From Tachypleus tridentatus (Eukaryota; Arthropoda; Merostomata; Xiphosura; Limulidae), in assembly GCF_004210375.1 (NCBI RefSeq), contig NC_134825.1, forward strand, positions 7,068,001 to 7,132,000: a stretch of 64,000 bases of DNA. The letters run 5' to 3'. The position numbers were made by a program, and so were the translations under genes. Below, piece after piece: positions 10,440-59,632 of this stretch (position 1 is the first letter of the stretch; each line of letters starts with the position of its first letter). Below the pieces are notes generated by a model. That model ran no database searches, was not told the origin of the DNA, and worked only from the letters and a program-made list of their open reading frames with translations.

Positions 10440-11586
10440 AGTGGTTGTATAAGTAAGGTTTCTTTAATTTTGCGTTTGTTTCTTTATTTAGTATTTGAGT
10501 GTTTTCTATGGTTATGTTGTGTTTATTTGATTTGCAGTGTTCAAAAACGTGTGAAGGTGACTTTTTATGTTAACTGAATCTGGTTTCCATTTTTCTACTT
10601 GTTTCTCCAATATAGAAGTCGTGGCAGTTATCACATTATATTTTATAAATAATGTTGGTGTGGTGTTTGTCAGTGTAGTTTTTACATAGCATAGACCTTA
10701 GTTTTCTGCCTGGTTTTTGAATAAATTTGGTATTAACTGGAATGTCATATTTTGTTACTAGTTTTTGACAAATGTTGGTTATTTTTCTGCTGATGTCAGG
10801 AATATATGGTATGCAGCAGTATATGGTTTCGTGATTTTTTGATTCGTGAGATATATTTACTTTTGTTGGTTGATTTTGCTTTTTGTCTAGGTGTGTACGT
10901 ATAATGTTTTATACAGTTTGTGGAGGAAACTTATTGATGTTAATGGAATATTGTTTTATTTTGTCTAATTCATCGTTAAGTTTATCTGGTGAGCATAGTT
11001 TTATGGCTGTGTTTATTTGGTTTCTTAGTATGTTAAGTTTTTGTTTTGTTTCATGTGCTGAGTCCCAAGGAATGTATAGTCCAGTATGGGTGATTTTTCG
11101 GTGGATTTCTGTTTTGAATTGTGTGTCGGTTCTTGTAATTTTGAGGTTAAGAAATGATATTTGATTGCTTTCTTCCTGTTCACATGTGAAGTTAACGTTG
11201 GGATGTATAGAGTTAATGTGAATGAAAAAATTAAGTATGTGTTCTGTAGATTTGAATTCCGCAACCGTGTCATCTACATATCTGTACCAGTATAGTGGTG
11301 GATGTAAAGCTGTGTTAATTGCTTGTGTTTCAACTTGTGTCATAAAAATATTGGATAGAACTAGTGATACTGGGTTGCCCATGCTTAGGCCATTTGTTTG
11401 TATATAGTTGTGGTTGTTGAACATGAAGTTTGTCTTCATCGTGGTGAATTCTATGAGTGTTGCTAATTGGTTGCTGGGAATGTCTGTTGATGGGTTAGGG
11501 TCTCGGATATAGAGTTCTAAGGCTATCTTACAGGTTTCAGATGTTGGGACTTCTGTAAAGAGGGATATAACGTCGAAACTGGCCAT
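10440..11586 (-). pseudogene. Penelope reverse transcriptase plus GIY-YIG endonuclease
   Basis: From 11586 an open frame of 225 codons starts ASFDVISLFTEVP, the family's first catalytic Asp region. It continues through QTNGLSMGNPVS and YWYRYVDDTVAEF, the YVDD active site with its two aspartates, then FLNLKI. It stops at 10909. The same frame resumes past that stop and reaches CHDFYIG.TSRKMETRF around 10580-10650, the GIY-YIG motif that nicks target DNA in Penelope elements. The RT core is intact, but at least one stop and the missing N-terminus make it inactive. It is nearly identical in parts to the plus-strand copy at 58571-59630. Confidence 0.88.
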
Positions 11587-15808: not shown

Positions 15809-17260
15809 ATGCGTCTCCATCGAGTGGAACATTTTGAAAGGTTCCAGGAAATGTTCGATTCTGAACGCAAACGCCTAGCTGAGGAAATATTAGATGGCCG
15901 GAATGCAGTCCAATGTAGCCTTAGTAAAGATCAGGTGAAAGACCACTACGATCAGGTATATGATGTTGTAACATCAATTTTGACGAATGTCCGTTACCAC
16001 CCAGGTCAAACAACACTGATATTCTGGAACTTCTAACACCAGGTGAAGTGAGGGCAGCACTTCAAGTTGTGAAGAAAGGGGCAGCTGGTCTCAATAACAT
16101 CACTCTTCTGTTCCTACTCAAACGTCTCAAGTATGGCATAGATGTTTCCTTGACAACTGTGTTTAATCTCTGGCAATCCTCTGGTCGCATTCCCGGATGT
16201 ATGAAAGTGAATAAGTCGGTGCTCATTCCGAAAGAAAAGAGTAATCTGCACGATGTAAAAAACTGGAGGCTGATCACAATTTCATCCATTGTGCTTCGAC
16301 TATATTCTAGGATAATGGTTCGCAGCCTCGAGCAGACAGTGCAGATAAATCCAAGACAGCGCGAAGTTATTCCTCAGGCTGGTTGTAGAGATAACTTATT
16401 CCTGCTCCAGTCTATCATGAGGATGGCCAAGCAACATGAGACTCTGTGTCTGGCTTTCCTTGACTTGTTACAAAGTCTTTGATACAGTTGGCCACAAATA
16501 CTTTTTTGCCAGCCTTGATAGATTCATAGTTCATCCACATTTCATCTAGATTGTGGAGAACATGTGCAATGGTGGTACCACAACCTATCGAGTAGGTATG
16601 CAAAATGCCTTCCCAATAAACCTACTCAAAGATGTCAAACAAGGAGACCCAATGTCGCCCATTCTGTTTAATATTGTTCTGGACCCTCTTCTACGAAAAC
16701 TTGAAGAGAAGTAGGCTGAGGCATATTGCTAAGCAGGAAACTGGAACCAGTCTCATATGCTGATGATATGGCAGTCCTGGCAAAAGACCATGCCAGTCTT
16801 CAAGCAATGTTAAGCATAGTGAATGAATACTGTTTGGGTAACGGCCTCGGTCTCAACATCTCTAAGAATGCCGGAATGCTGATTAGAGGGTCCAATAAGA
16901 TCTTCACTGTTAACGACGGCCCTCATTGGTCAGTCAATAGTGACACACTCTCAATGATCGGACCCAAACAGTCGTATCGATATCTTGGAGCAAGCATTTG
17001 TCCATGGACAGGAGTCTACAGCGAGCCTGTGAAACCAACCCTTGAGAAATGCATAAACAATATCTCTAACACACCCCTCAAACAACACCATAGGGTGGAA
17101 ATGCTCTGTATATTTGCTGTGCCCTGGCTTTTATACCAACTTGAACTGGGCAAAATTGATTTCAGATTGTTAAAAAAACTAGACAATCTTATAAAAAAGA
17201 CTGTGAAAAACTGGTGTCATCTACCAGCCTGCACGGCCGACGGTTTGCTCCACTAACGTC
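15809..17260 (+). pseudogene. R2 reverse transcriptase domain
   Basis: This region is read in several frames. 15809-16036 holds ERFQEMFDSERKRLAEEILDG, the pre-RT helix region. 16048-16482 holds GRIPGCMKVNKSVLIPK, then KNWRLITISSIVLRLYSRI (the 'W.PI...S' RT motif) and FLD, the first catalytic Asp. After a frameshift, KQGDPMSPILFNIVLDPLL lies at about 16635-16690. 16726-17256 holds VSYADDMAVLAKD, the YADD active site, and the thumb region with YRYLGASI. All core RT motifs are recognisable and the active-site aspartates are kept, but at least three breaks make it non-functional. Confidence 0.85.
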
Positions 17261-24426: not shown

Positions 24427-26202
24427 TTAGTGCGACACTTGAAATTTAGAGTCCTTGCAGAGCTTGTCAATATCAGCTTTGACAGAAGTGGTTGCCACTC
24501 TTAACTGACTGGTCAAATGTTCATCAGTCAGCTGACTTCTACATTTGGTTTTGATGAGCTTCATTTTGGAGAAAAATTGCTCACAGCAGTAGGTGCTACC
24601 AAAAAGGGAGGCAATTCTTTGTGCATGACGGGACAAATTGGGAAACTTTTCACGTACACAGAGTTTGTAAAAGTCTAGCAAACTGTTTTCAGAGAATTTC
24701 CTTTTAGTGTCCATGTCAGCCTGCAGTTCAATGAGTTCCATTTGGCAATCATCAGGACTGTCTTCCACTGCCAAATCAAAAGGTTGAGCGAACAATTTCA
24801 ATCTAATTTCAGTTTGTCTGAAATCTGGAAATCTGTTTGCAAACTCATCACGCAGCTTTTGTACACTGGTTCCATATTTGGTGCAATCCAGATTAGGAAA
24901 TTCCAGTTTCCTGGTTGCAAGACATGTAAAATGGGTCAATATGGCTCTTCTCAACTGAACCTGAAAAGTTCCAATTTCTTCTCAAAAGCACAAATATGCT
25001 CAAACAACTTATTCACAAGTTGACTTTTCCCTTGTAGTTTTAAGTTTAAATCAGACAGATGCTGTGTAATGTCTGTGAGGAATGCTAAGTCATTCAGCCA
25101 GTTCTCATTGCTCAAGAAGTCCACATTCTCTCCATGAAGAACTTAATCTCCTCTCGCAGATTCCAGAATCTCTTCAAAGTAGCAGCTCTACTAAGCCAAC
25201 GTACAGCAGAGAAGTACAAAACATCTGAATACTCACTGTCCAGCTCATCTAAAAAGTTTTAAATTGTCGATGATTTAATCCTCGTGTTCGAATATAATTT
25301 ACGCATTGGACGACATTTTTCATGACTTCTGCAAAATCCAGAACTTTGGTGCACAAGCTCTCTTGGTGAATAATGCAATGGCTTACAACTACGTCTTGTG
25401 CTCCAATTGCAGTTAGAAATTTCTTGGTGAATCCATTTGTCCTACCTGTCATGGAAGGAGCACCATCTGTTGTAACACCACATAATTTATAAGGATTCAG
25501 TTCAAACTTTTCTACAACCTTAAGCACTTGTTCACAAATATCCTGTCCTGTGGTTGTGGAGGAAAGGCTTGCCATATCTAAAACTCTTCGAAAACATCAA
25601 AGCCTGCAGTAACAGCTCTGATGAAAATGACAAGTTGGGATGTGTCATTGATATCAGTGCTTTCATCCAAAGCCAGACTGAAAGCTTCATACGAATTCAA
25701 TCTCTCTTTCAAAGTTTCTTTGATGTCCTCTGAAAGATCTTTTGTCCTGCGTGAGACAGTAAAGCGGAAAGGCTAGTTTGCTCCACCAAATATTTTTTCT
25801 CTGGACATGCATATTCTGTGAATATTGTTAAACAATTTTAATAAATTCTCCCTCACTGAAAGGCTTTCCTTTTCTGCCATACATTCACAAAGCTTAAAAC
25901 TCAGTTTTGTCACCAGTTCTGAATTTTTCTTGAAAGTGGTAAAACACCTTGTTGCTTTTCAATGGATGTTTTAAATGTTCAATTTTGTCCTTTCGTGCCT
26001 GACCAACAATTTCATCAAACTGGGAGGAGTGCTTAGTTGCGTAATGTCGCTTAATATTGTACTCTTTCATGACTGCAATTGTAGTTTGACAGACGAGGCA
26101 GACAACACCTTGATTATGTGGGACAACAAGATATTTTGTGCACCATTCACTGTTGAATAACCTTCCCTCATCATCAATTTTTCGTTTCTTAACTGCTGAC
26201 AT
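24427..26202 (-). pseudogene. hAT transposase, broken
   Basis: The start at 26202 (MSAVKKRKIDDEGRLF) leads into a BED-like finger, CLVCQTTIAVMKEYNIKRH, with Cys-x2-Cys then His...His. Catalytic-domain pieces follow in changing frames: NSYEAFSLALDESTDIND near 25670 (catalytic Asp region), LCGVTTDGAPSMTG near 25480 (second Asp), FSAVRWLSRAATLKRFW near 25200 (the hAT 'RW.SR' block). The C-terminal dimerisation block FGSTYCCEQFFSKMK then SQLTDEHL lies at 24427-24954. The whole resembles the ZBED5/GTF2IRD2-like branch of hAT proteins. An internal TAG near 25775 and at least two frame changes mean it is inactive, though all domains are present. Confidence 0.88.
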
Positions 26203-43834: not shown

Positions 43835-44741
43835 CGAGGTCTGTTCAAAGAATACGCGGACTGTTTGAATTGCGCGGCTCCAGTTGGTTCCAGGGGAATC
43901 CGCTTGGTGTCGCTAGGTTTGCACAGATCAGCTGATTACGACGCCATTTCCCGATTGCAGATATCTTCATTTGTGTATTAGCTACGCGGTTTTAAGTGAA
44001 ATGCGATTTTTTCGTTTGGCGGATTTCAGAATGAATGACCTGAAGGAGCAACGACTTGCTGTGAAATTTTGTGTTAAACTTGGAAAATCTGCGACTGAAA
44101 CTTTTGCTATGCTTAACACGGCTTACGGTGATGTTGCTATGAAGCGTACGGCGTGTTTCAAGTGGCATGAACGTTTTAAGGATGGTCAACAGTCCATTGA
44201 AGATGATGAGCGTCCTGGACGTCCTTCTACGTCAACTGACGACCTACACGTCGACAAAATCAACATCCTGGTGCGGGCAAATCGACGTCTGACTGTCAGG
44301 GAGCTTGCTGAAGAGTGTGGGATATCAGTTGGATCTTGTTACGAGATTTTGACCGAAAAATTGAAGATGCACCGCGTTGCTGCGAAATTTGTGCCTCAGA
44401 ACTCGTGAGTTTCTGGCCAAACACTCGATCACTGTTCTTCCCCACCCCTCCTACTCACCTGACCTTGCTCTTTGCGATTTTTTCTTGTTCCCCAAACTCA
44501 AAAGACCCTTGAAAGGAAGAAGATTTGAGACGATTCCCGAGATTAAGGCAAATGCGACGAAGGAGCTGGAGGACATTACAAAAGAAGCGTACCAGGACTG
44601 TTTCAACAAGTAAAAACACCGTTGGGATAAGTGTGTGCGTTGGGGAGGAGAGTACTTTCAAGGGGTCCCAGATTTGTAACTTCTAAATAAAGTACATTTT
44701 GTTTTATGACGTCGGTCCGCGTATTTTTTTAACAGCCCTCG
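43835..44741 (+). mobile_element. mariner element, internally deleted, TA duplication
   Basis: The ends CGAGGTCTGTTCAAAGAATA (43835 onward) and TATTTTTTTAACAGCCCTCG (to 44741) are inverted repeats flanked by TA at 43833-43834 and 44742-44743. At 907 bp it is about 400 bp shorter than a typical 1.3-kb mariner. It inserted into the end of the Tc1 fragment. Confidence 0.92.
43971..44613 (+). pseudogene. mariner transposase, central deletion
   Basis: The N-terminal half, open to 44405, has the helix-turn-helix DNA-binding part: AVKFCVKLGKSATETFAML, then TACFKWHERFKDG, DDERPGRPSTS, and LTVRELAEECGISVGSCYEI. It breaks off at KFVPQNS, just before the catalytic domain. The C-terminal part resumes in another frame at about 44408 with REFLAKHSITVLPHPSYSPD, containing the third catalytic Asp. 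It continues with LKGRRFETIPEIKA to a stop at 44611, with the usual WDKCVRWGGEYF downstream. The first two catalytic aspartates are deleted, so the protein is dead, while the DNA-binding half is intact. Confidence 0.9.
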
Positions 44742-49753: not shown

Positions 49754-49921
49754 TAACACAGGTCAACAAATTTTTTCGAAATCTCAGTTGCATAAGATTT
49801 TTTTACTCATTCTTACCCTTTGTGACCTGCTAAATTCAAATATGAAAACGGTTCAGCTCTACATGCTCTAGTTTTAATGCAATTTTAAGTTTTTCATTCT
49901 AGCCTTTTGTGGTCAAATTAA

Positions 49922-50106
49922 CACGTTTCCTGCGATGCCTATATTGGCAAACCGGCAACTGCTGCGATGCTCTTGTACATCTGACAGCTTCAGTGCTGCA
50001 TGAGCTATGATAACGTGAGGTTGTCGTTACACTTGTCTCTAGCCTGCAACTTAGTTGAAGGTAAGACAATAGTGGGACACCGGTGGGTCCCATCGCAGGA
50101 AACGTG
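49922..50106. mobile_element. piggyBac-type MITE, 185 bp, TTAA duplication
   Basis: Perfect 16-bp inverted ends CACGTTTCCTGCGATG (49922-49937) and CATCGCAGGAAACGTG (50091-50106) sit between TTAA at 49918-49921 and 50107-50110, the target of piggyBac transposases. There is no coding capacity. It lies between the left end and the gene of the CACTG-type element, so it could disturb that element's leader. Confidence 0.92.
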
Positions 50107-50176
50107 TTAATTACTTACACGTTTATGTTATCAACAGAGATATTAAAATTGTTTAGATTTTGTTTCAGATCTGATC

Positions 50177-51883
50177 ATGGCTACAAGGAGACATCAATGT
50201 GAGAACAAGCCGGACGCTTTTTGTTATATTTGTGGATGCTTCACGCTTATTCGTCAAAGGCGTAATATAACATCGTTTCTGAGGCGTGCTTATAAAGCGT
50301 ACTTTGGACTTGCTCTTGGTGACCAAGACAAGAAATGGGCCCCACATATTGTGTGTCATAACTGCGAGAAAATGCTGCGTGACTGGACAAAAGGGAAACG
50401 TAAGGGTTTACCTTTCGGGATTTCCATGACCTGGCGAGAACCGATGGACCACACAACTGACTGCTATTTTTGTCTGGTCAATACAAAGGGCATTGGCAAG
50501 AAAAACAGACACAAAATCTCATATCCTAGTATCCCCTCAGCAATCCGACCTACTCTGCACTCTGATGAGCTCCCAATCCCAGTTTTTAAAGGATTTCTTC
50601 CATCTGAAGATGTGGGTAGTGACCAAGAGCAAGAGACTGCTGATGAAACTCAAGAAATACTTTCAGAATCTGGCGATCCTTCTTATGAGACCCCACAGTC
50701 ATTAACTCCTCAACAGTTTAGCCAGCCAGAGTTGAATGACCTTGTGCGTGATTTGGGTCTCTCCAAAATGCAGCTGAAGTGTTAGCTTCCAGGATGCAAG
50801 AAAAGAATCAGATGAGCCATACAACTAAAGTGTCATACTTCCGAAATCGGGAGCAGACTTTTGTGCCATTTTTTTACAGAGGAGAATATGTTTGTTTATT
50901 GTCATAATATCTCAGGTCTTCTCCAGGAATTAGGGATGCCAGTATACCATCCAATTTCTAGATTGTTTCTAGATTGTTCTAAGCAAAGTTTGAAGTGCAT
51001 TCTACTTCATAATGACAATGTCTATGCAGCTGTTCCAATTGGACACTCTGTGTATTTACGAGAGGAATATAATGACATTAAGACTGTGATTGACCTACTA
51101 AAATACCACGAGCACAACTGGACAATTTGTGTGGACCTCAAAATGGTTACTTTCCTCTTAGGTCAACAAAGAGGATTTACAAAGTATCCCTGCTATCTTT
51201 GCATGTGGGACAGCCGAGCTCGAGAAAAGCACTGGAACCAGAAGGAGTGGCCCATACGTGAGACTCTGAAGGCAGGTATGCCAAATATTGTCAACGATCC
51301 AATTGTCAGTCGAGAAAAGATCATATTTCCTCCTCTCCATATCAAGCTGGGCTTGATGAAACAGTTTATAAAGGCGTTGAATACTGACGGTGAATGCTTC
51401 CAACACATATTTTCTGTGCTCCCTGGTTTGTCCTTCGAGAAGATCAAGGCAGGTGTTTTTGATGGACCACAGATTCGTGCACTTGTGCATGATCAAGAAT
51501 TTGCCAGAAAGATGAACGACAAGGAAAGGACTGCATGGCTTTCATTTGTGGCGGTGATGGCAAACTTTCTCGGTAATAAAAAAGCTGACAACTATGAAAC
51601 TTTTGTAGCGAATATGTTGTCAGCTTTTCGCGATCTTGGATGTAACGTGAGTGTCAAACTCCATTACCTGTACAGTCATCTTGATAGATTCCCTGAGAAC
51701 CCAGGAGCTGTAAGTGACGAGCAAGGCGAGCGGTTCCATCAGGACCTCAAGACCATGGAAGAGCGTTACCAAAGGAGATGGGACAAACATATGATGGCAG
51801 ATTACTGCTGGAGCATTAAACGAGAATGCCCTGAGACAGTCCACAAACGCAAGAGCTACAAGCGGAAATTCATGCCTGAGTAG
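50177..51883 (+). pseudogene. Uncharacterised transposon protein, zinc-binding plus possible DDE fold
   Basis: The first frame (50177-50785, 202 aa) has CYIC (16-19), AYKAYFGLALGDQDKKWAPH, CHNC (60-63), H92/CYFC (92-99), an acidic Gln/Glu-rich linker and LNDLVRDLGLSK: a CxxC...CxxC N-terminal domain like insect ZAD fingers. A missing A in an A-run at 50767-50770 shifts into a bridge (NAAEVLASRMQEKNQ...YFRNREQTFVPFF). An extra T near 50868-50873 then shifts to the second frame (50861-51883, 340 aa). That frame contains LFLDCSKQSLKCILLHN (D38), WTICVDLKMV (D92), CYLC (111-114), H124, and DEQGERFHQD (Glu about 287-290). D-D-E with a CxxC/H insertion suits a cut-and-paste transposase. I recall similar repetitive unnamed proteins in other arthropods. 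The two slips compensate, so the copy is young. Confidence 0.7.
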
Positions 51884-52261
51884 ACTGCAATTGAGCTTTG
51901 CCTGCTCATAGTAGCAAATGTCTTATCTACTAATCAGTTTTATATAAATAAATTGAATTATAACTTTATATAAAATTGAATTTATATAAATAACTTGAAT
52001 ACATTTATACTATCTTGCATTTTCTTTTTTATTACCCAGCTATATTAAAGAGTTTTATAACATATTTTATCACATATTTTTCATGATAGACTACGACGTC
52101 AATGTGATGATGACGAAATTTTGAGATTTTCAAATACCTTGATTGCAAAAAAAGTAGAGCACTGAGTAAAAAACTAACTTCAGATCTGAAATCAGGGCAA
52201 GAAATTATGTAATACCAAGTGTTTGATATAAATGCAACAAAAACTTTGTTGACCAGTGTAA

Positions 52262-58570: not shown

Positions 58571-59632
58571 TTGTGTAACTCATCAATAGATATTCCCAGC
58601 AAACAATTAGCAACCCTCATAGAATTCACCACAATGAAGATAAACTTCATGTTCAACAACCACAACTATATACAAACAAATGGCCTAAGCATGGGCAACC
58701 CAGTATCACCAGTTCTAGCCAATATTTTTATGACACAAGTTGAAACACAAGCAATTAACACAGCATTATATCCACCATCATACTGGTACAGATATGTAGA
58801 TGACACGGTTGCGGGATTCAAATCTACAGAACACACACTTAATTTTTCAATCACATTAACTCTATACATCCCAACATCAACTTCACATGTGAACAGGAAG
58901 AAATCAATAAAATATCATTTCTTAACCTCAAAATTATAAGAACCGATACACAATTTAAAACAGGAATCCACTGAAAAATCACCCATACTATACATTCCTT
59001 GGGACTCAGCACATGAAACAAAATAAAAATTCAACATACTAAGAAACCAAATAAACACAGCCATAAAACTATACTCACCAGATAAAATTAACGATGAATT
59101 AGACAAAATAAAACAATACTTCATCAACATCAATAAGTTTCCTCCACAAACCGTAGAAAACATTATACGCACACACCTAGACAGAAAGCAAAATCAACCA
59201 ACTAAAGTAAATATATCTCACAAATCAAAAAATCACAAAACCATATACTGCTGCATACCATATATTCCTGACATCAGCAGACAAATAACCAACATTTGGC
59301 AAAAACTAATAATAAAATATGACATTCCAGTTAATACCAAATTTATTCAAAAACCAGGCACAAAACTTAGGTCTATACCATGTAAAAACTACACTGACAA
59401 ACACAACACCAACATTATTTATAAAATACAATGTGATAACTGCCACGACTTCTATATTGGAGACACAAGTAGAAAAATGGAAACCAGATTCAAAGAACAC
59501 AAAAAGTCACCTTCACATGTTTTTGAACACTCCAAATCAAATAAACACAACGTAACCATAGAAAACACCCAACTACTAAATAAAGAAACAAAAATAAACC
59601 AATACAAAGGAACACCTTTTTACCTATATTAA
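58571..59632 (+). pseudogene. Penelope RT and GIY-YIG endonuclease, broken
   Basis: Frame 58571-58936 has PSKQLATLIEFTTMKINFMF, QTNGLSMGNPVSPVLANIFM and YWYRYVDDTVAGF, the YVDD active site. A frame change near 58850 then breaks the RT thumb. Around 59425-59500, CDNCHDFYIGDTSRKMETRF is the GIY-YIG endonuclease motif with the YIG intact, followed by KHNVTIENTQLLNKETK, the usual C-terminus. The family protein normally has another 250 or more residues before the RT, absent here. Compared with the minus-strand copy at 10440-11586 the residues are very similar, so the two derive from one recent source. Confidence 0.88.

Follow-up and report, generated by a model that had tools for sequence, protein, structure and literature searches.

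The window considered here, a stretch of 64,000 nucleotides from Tachypleus tridentatus, contains a DNA transposon with both of its ends complete, and the family to which this element belongs is very probably of the Chapaev3 group in the CMC clade, likened to it by published description and not by sequence. It looks like a new family inside an already named group. What it adds is a Chapaev3-type family whose limits are well defined and which has been mobile recently, together with its exact ends, its target site and its shared subterminal stretches. An earlier note on this DNA had set the limits of the element, the agreement of its inverted ends and the TAA on both sides exactly as they are given in Table 1, and the relation to CMC that it proposed holds, with CAC ends, a short duplication and zinc-type residues after the second Asp. 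Its suggestion that the family had gone unnamed is not supported, since Chapaev3 is already in print and its published hallmarks fit the measurements. That Pfam and NCBIfam are blind to the protein would explain the impression.

Table 1. Features of the element and their positions in the window
Feature	Position	Strand	Remarks
Whole element, very probably of Chapaev3 type	49757..52258	+	2,502 bp; delimited by its ends and by copies in its own genome
Target-site duplication TAA, left	49754..49756	.	preceded by A
Target-site duplication TAA, right	52259..52261	.	followed by T
Left terminal inverted repeat	49757..49776	+	18/20 bases agree with the right end
Right terminal inverted repeat	52239..52258	-	counterpart of the left end
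Left subterminal stretch	49828..49892 (approximate)	+	resembles both sister ends; local alignment scores 62 against the left end of the sister (the longer alignment) and 41 against its right end
Nested TTAA-flanked miniature element, passenger	49922..50106	+	185 bp, perfect 16-bp inverted ends (CACGTTTCCTGCGATG)
First part of transposase gene	50177..50785	+	N-terminal region, three CxxC; zinc-/DNA-binding role proposed
Second part of transposase gene	50861..51883	+	D38, D92, C111/C114, L159-H160, H268(4)H273, E287/E290; putative DDE core that carries a zinc insertion
Right subterminal stretch	52142..52198 (approximate)	-	TGATTTCAGATCTGAA...; resembles both sister ends; scores 52 and 48

The genome searched comprises 2.17 Gb in 205 contigs. 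The element found at least 54 matching pieces there (40 of 739 first-look candidates scored), and the exact pattern of TWA followed by the left end occurs 136 times, its reversed control not once; this is repetition far beyond chance. Forty copies, that of the window included, were fetched, and the 38 with both ends in place, a part of the at least 136 left ends, were aligned. With gaps left aside, any two of them differ by 0.08% to 5.2% (median 2.4%) and each lies between 0.08% and 3.0% from its nearest neighbour, the closest pair differing at less than 0.1% of aligned bases. Two copies lying some 47 kb apart on one contig (L033 and L038, on C11) have flanks that are identical over the 15 bases shown on each side, and differ from each other by 4 substitutions but 15 indels; the pair is either a recent duplication or an assembly artefact.

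At its tips the window element reads CACAG on the left and, on the other strand, CACTG on the right, CAC being the part in common. In the aligned copies CAC starts 37 of the 38 left ends and GTG finishes 37 of the 38 right ends. An exact 3-bp duplication flanks 27 copies (16 TTA, 10 TAA and a single TAT, the last at a copy with a damaged right end), which makes 26 of the 38 with a TWA duplication, and in all 27 an A stands before the duplication and a T after it. Flanks without an exact 3-bp match are found in 11 copies. In five of these (L008, L010, L024, L030 and L037) a surplus T separates a duplicated TAAT from the left CAC end, which may have come from a stagger of 4-5 bp and an added filler base; the nearest neighbours of L024, L030 and L037 lie in one cluster around L030/L033, and those of L008 and L010 do not. 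Two further copies of the 11 have flanks identical to each other's, this being a single locus present twice, in the genome or in the assembly.

The first frame of the window gene has CxxC at positions 16, 60 and 96. In the second frame D38, D92, the CxxC at 111-114 and H124 are where the earlier reading had put them, and the first C lies 19 residues after the second D, as in RAG1. All of the residues named in Table 1 for the second part are invariant in an alignment of four sequences, which takes in the sister 75% identical to the window protein, and E287 or E290 is proposed as the candidate catalytic Glu. An AlphaFold model of the 340-aa second frame alone, from one sequence, is unreliable (pLDDT 36.8, pTM 0.22), although in its secondary structure, of the order beta-beta-beta-alpha-beta-alpha-beta, D38 and D92 come at strand ends, the positions expected of them in a DDE fold.

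The two frames of the window copy had been read as one gene with two homopolymer slips that cancel each other, and sister copies were expected to be intact. At either place one and the same departure from the window copy, of a single base, recurs in 31 of the other 37 copies in the alignment; some of the remaining copies have another change there, and a few, e.g. the nearest copy L002, seem to share one slip with the window, so that the slips are not strictly private. That the frames might be two genes was rejected, as most copies are without the window slips and a copy of the sister family considered below, L072, is whole in one frame. The window's two frames are one gene. As assembled, the window copy has no single full frame and would move only when helped by another copy. 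The expectation of intact sisters was disappointed within the window family, where an unbroken full frame is present in 0 of the 38 aligned copies (the longest stop-to-stop frame is 520 aa), and realized in one of the two sister-family copies fetched.

Libraries and databases have little to say about the protein. Pfam hmmscan up to E 1 and up to E 10, with HMMER filters that drop most matches above E about 0.1, returned only weak matches below the cut-off and none to a transposase; NCBIfam returned no match; a search of PDB by sequence brought up nothing better than E 0.24, all of it weak and unrelated, and one with the alignment profile gave no match. For relatives beyond its own genome, viral contigs were scanned with the protein, the alignment and two degenerate motifs, genome_contigs once with the alignment, and phage records with tblastn, all without a find. 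A literature search with peptide strings of the protein found no paper. Since Pfam and NCBIfam do not see them, such frames in genomes like this would be listed as uncharacterised; in its own genome the protein gave 125 matches when 119 of 16,581 first-look candidates, themselves unconfirmed, were scored.

Among these matches is a sister group with a protein about 75% identical and open frames of up to 589 aa. Two of its copies were fetched, L071 (2,168 bp) and L072 (2,154 bp), with ends CACTGGGGAACACT and duplications TAA and TTA, respectively. L072 has an unbroken frame of 569 aa from ATG to stop in which five residues near the C-terminus are missing relative to L071, and the open frame of L071 diverges from it in the N-terminal part. 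L072 is located in a tandem array, another unit of which resembles an empty site with a single TTA and 1 mismatch of 31; further units of the array have 2 to 5 differing bases. The sister end preceded by TWA has 688 exact occurrences. On contig C1 60 such ends make 27 facing pairs, and in 27 of 27 the duplication is the same on both sides, a test of the agreement of the two sides only, as the pattern itself demanded TWA. The lengths of these pairs, 579-628 bp (10 pairs), 980-981 bp (4), 2,137-2,197 bp (11) and 2,319-2,326 bp (2), are those of autonomous-size elements plus shortened forms.

Between L005 and L072 pN is 0.175 and pS 0.815, the latter saturated: since the split from the sister family amino acids have been held by selection and silent sites randomised. 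Despite this, both families have in their ends a shared stretch, roughly 55-65 bp long and lying about 60-135 bp in from the tips, and this points to a function. It reads TGATTTCA(A/G)ATCTGAA...TGCAAT and is looser at the left end of the window element. None of 300 mononucleotide shuffles reached the scores of the left and right subterminal stretches against the sister ends, and five of six end-to-end comparisons came out above all 300 shuffles. The comparison of the left with the right end within the window element was reached by 2 of the 300, only the 20-bp tips there being alike. Most simply, the subterminal stretches are putative transposase-binding regions, as judged from sequence conservation.

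A third lineage is degenerate. L073 and L074, the copies fetched, consist of pieces that are 32-46% identical; L074 keeps both Asp and EQGEHFH (D38, D92, E287 and E290 being present) and has lost the CxxC, and in L073 the first Asp and EQGERFH remain, the stretch between being missing. In the window itself, on the minus strand at 47970-47172, there is a third Chapaev3-like gene, degenerate and in pieces that are 33-42% identical, of which the first, of about 70 aa, contains stops and ends at what is, by eye, a splice-donor-like sequence. For a 125-aa part of this gene the genome yields 4,537 first-look candidates, of which 150 were scored.

The passenger in the left part of the element has its own history. 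Its end together with TTAA occurs 263 times in the genome, and of 52 such places on contigs C1-C6, 43 have an exact end of the carrier, or a match to it, no more than 400 bp away, from which it follows that the miniature element spread mainly as a passenger. Two copies, L039 and L040, are without it; 76 bp around the start codon, in inverted orientation, take its place. Elsewhere in the window there are what we take, by appearance, to be mobile-element fragments, at 10909-11586 (-), 58571-58939 (+), 16048-17256 (+), 24427-24954 (-) and 43971-44408 (+), presumably two pieces of Penelope-like reverse transcriptase, pieces of LINE-like reverse transcriptase, a hAT C-terminus and a mariner N-terminus.

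How might such an element move? The ends, the target rule, the dispersed copies and the constraint on amino acids are observed, and we infer the chemistry, the binding sites and the choice of Glu along the following lines. Movement would be by cut-and-paste. With its N-terminal CxxC modules, and by way of the subterminal stretch that is shared, the transposase would bind both ends and pair them; the cut at CAC/GTG would be made by a DDE RNase H-like core (D38, D92 and the late Glu) with a C2...H2 zinc insertion; and the ends would be joined to TWA with a 3-bp stagger, giving insertion at A-TWA-T.

Is the window family recently dead, spent and without a working transposase? This concerns its status only and is compatible with the Chapaev3 placement. 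It is what one might conclude from 38 aligned copies with no unbroken frame among them, and we consider it unlikely, if not negligibly so, given that the closest copies are nearly identical, that frames are known for just 38 of the at least 136 left ends and that an intact copy exists in the sister family. Moreover, part of the frame breakage may be residual assembly error: in the 22 pairs with less than 0.8% divergence there are 97 one-base indels versus 252 substitutions, and 72 of the 97 are in runs of at least 4, a tally that is a hint and no more because some copies are common to several pairs.

Placement elsewhere has less to recommend it. PIF/Harbinger transposons also duplicate TWA, and on that score an element of this type could be envisaged, but the CAC...GTG ends, the three N-terminal CxxC, the CxxC after the second Asp and the H(4)H all speak against it, as does the absence of a Pfam transposase match in hmmscan to E 10, and it is hardly to be entertained. 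A lineage distinct from Chapaev3 itself, inside or beside CMC and with the same ends, duplication rule and motifs, is a more respectable thought, as neither Pfam nor NCBIfam names the protein and as C(2)C and H(3-4)H are, in the account of PMC12730594, CMCT-wide, so that motifs alone cannot place it. We nevertheless think it improbable, for TWA with its flanking A and T, the element length, the protein length and the H(4)H spacing together make up the Chapaev3 combination as that group has been described. There is similarly only a slight chance that the proteins branch off deeply next to Chapaev3, still within CMC, and merit a name of their own, with three or more lineages present in a single genome, of which two have numerous near-identical copies and one is old and intron-bearing. 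The family is accordingly filed as very probably Chapaev3, in keeping with the published hallmarks.

Among known systems, Transib duplicates 5 bp. Transib and RAG1 have, as here, C(2)C and H(3-4)H between the second D and the last E, a feature that the account in PMC12730594 gives as common to the whole CMCT clade. Chapaev proper (Chapaev1/2), of which Chapaev3 is a sublineage in the same account, has CAC ends, as here, and a DDE transposase with the conserved CMC residues, to which the putative DDE core here would correspond, with duplications, in so far as they are described, of 3-4 bp, those here being of 3 bp, TWA. DUF1280 (PF06918) has been assigned to Chapaev transposases in what PMC3985635 presents; none is listed among the Pfam matches of our protein in hmmscan to E 1 and to E 10, and searches of the Tachypleus tridentatus genome with the DUF1280 and RAG1 profiles were empty, with the controls silent as well.

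Chapaev3 itself was brought into print by Kapitonov and Jurka in Repbase Reports of 2007-2008, as cited in PMC4079192 and PMC4411706, and the latter describes an N-terminal 'Chapa' zinc-finger domain; the protein here has three CxxC in its N-terminal part. Its hallmarks as set out in PMC4079192 are a TWA duplication between A and T, 5'-CAC..GTG-3' ends, C(2)C, LH and H(4)H, with proteins of 556-562 aa and elements of 2.3-2.5 kb (2,289-2,451 bp). The ends, the TWA between A and T and the C(2)C/LH/H(4)H of the Merrow, Garfield and Conan families, and of Repbase Chapaev3-1_PM and others, are shared here, the three motifs being present in every sequence of the four-sequence alignment, with the C(2)C lost in L074. 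In length our elements are near the published values and slightly outside them, at 2,502 bp including the 185-bp passenger for the window element and 2,154/2,168 bp for its sisters, with a protein of 569 aa in L072. In two respects the families here go their own way: the frame of L072 is in one piece with no intron needed, and the window family bears a nested TTAA miniature element. In the third lineage the first exon appears, by eye, to stand apart, as it does in Merrow and Garfield.
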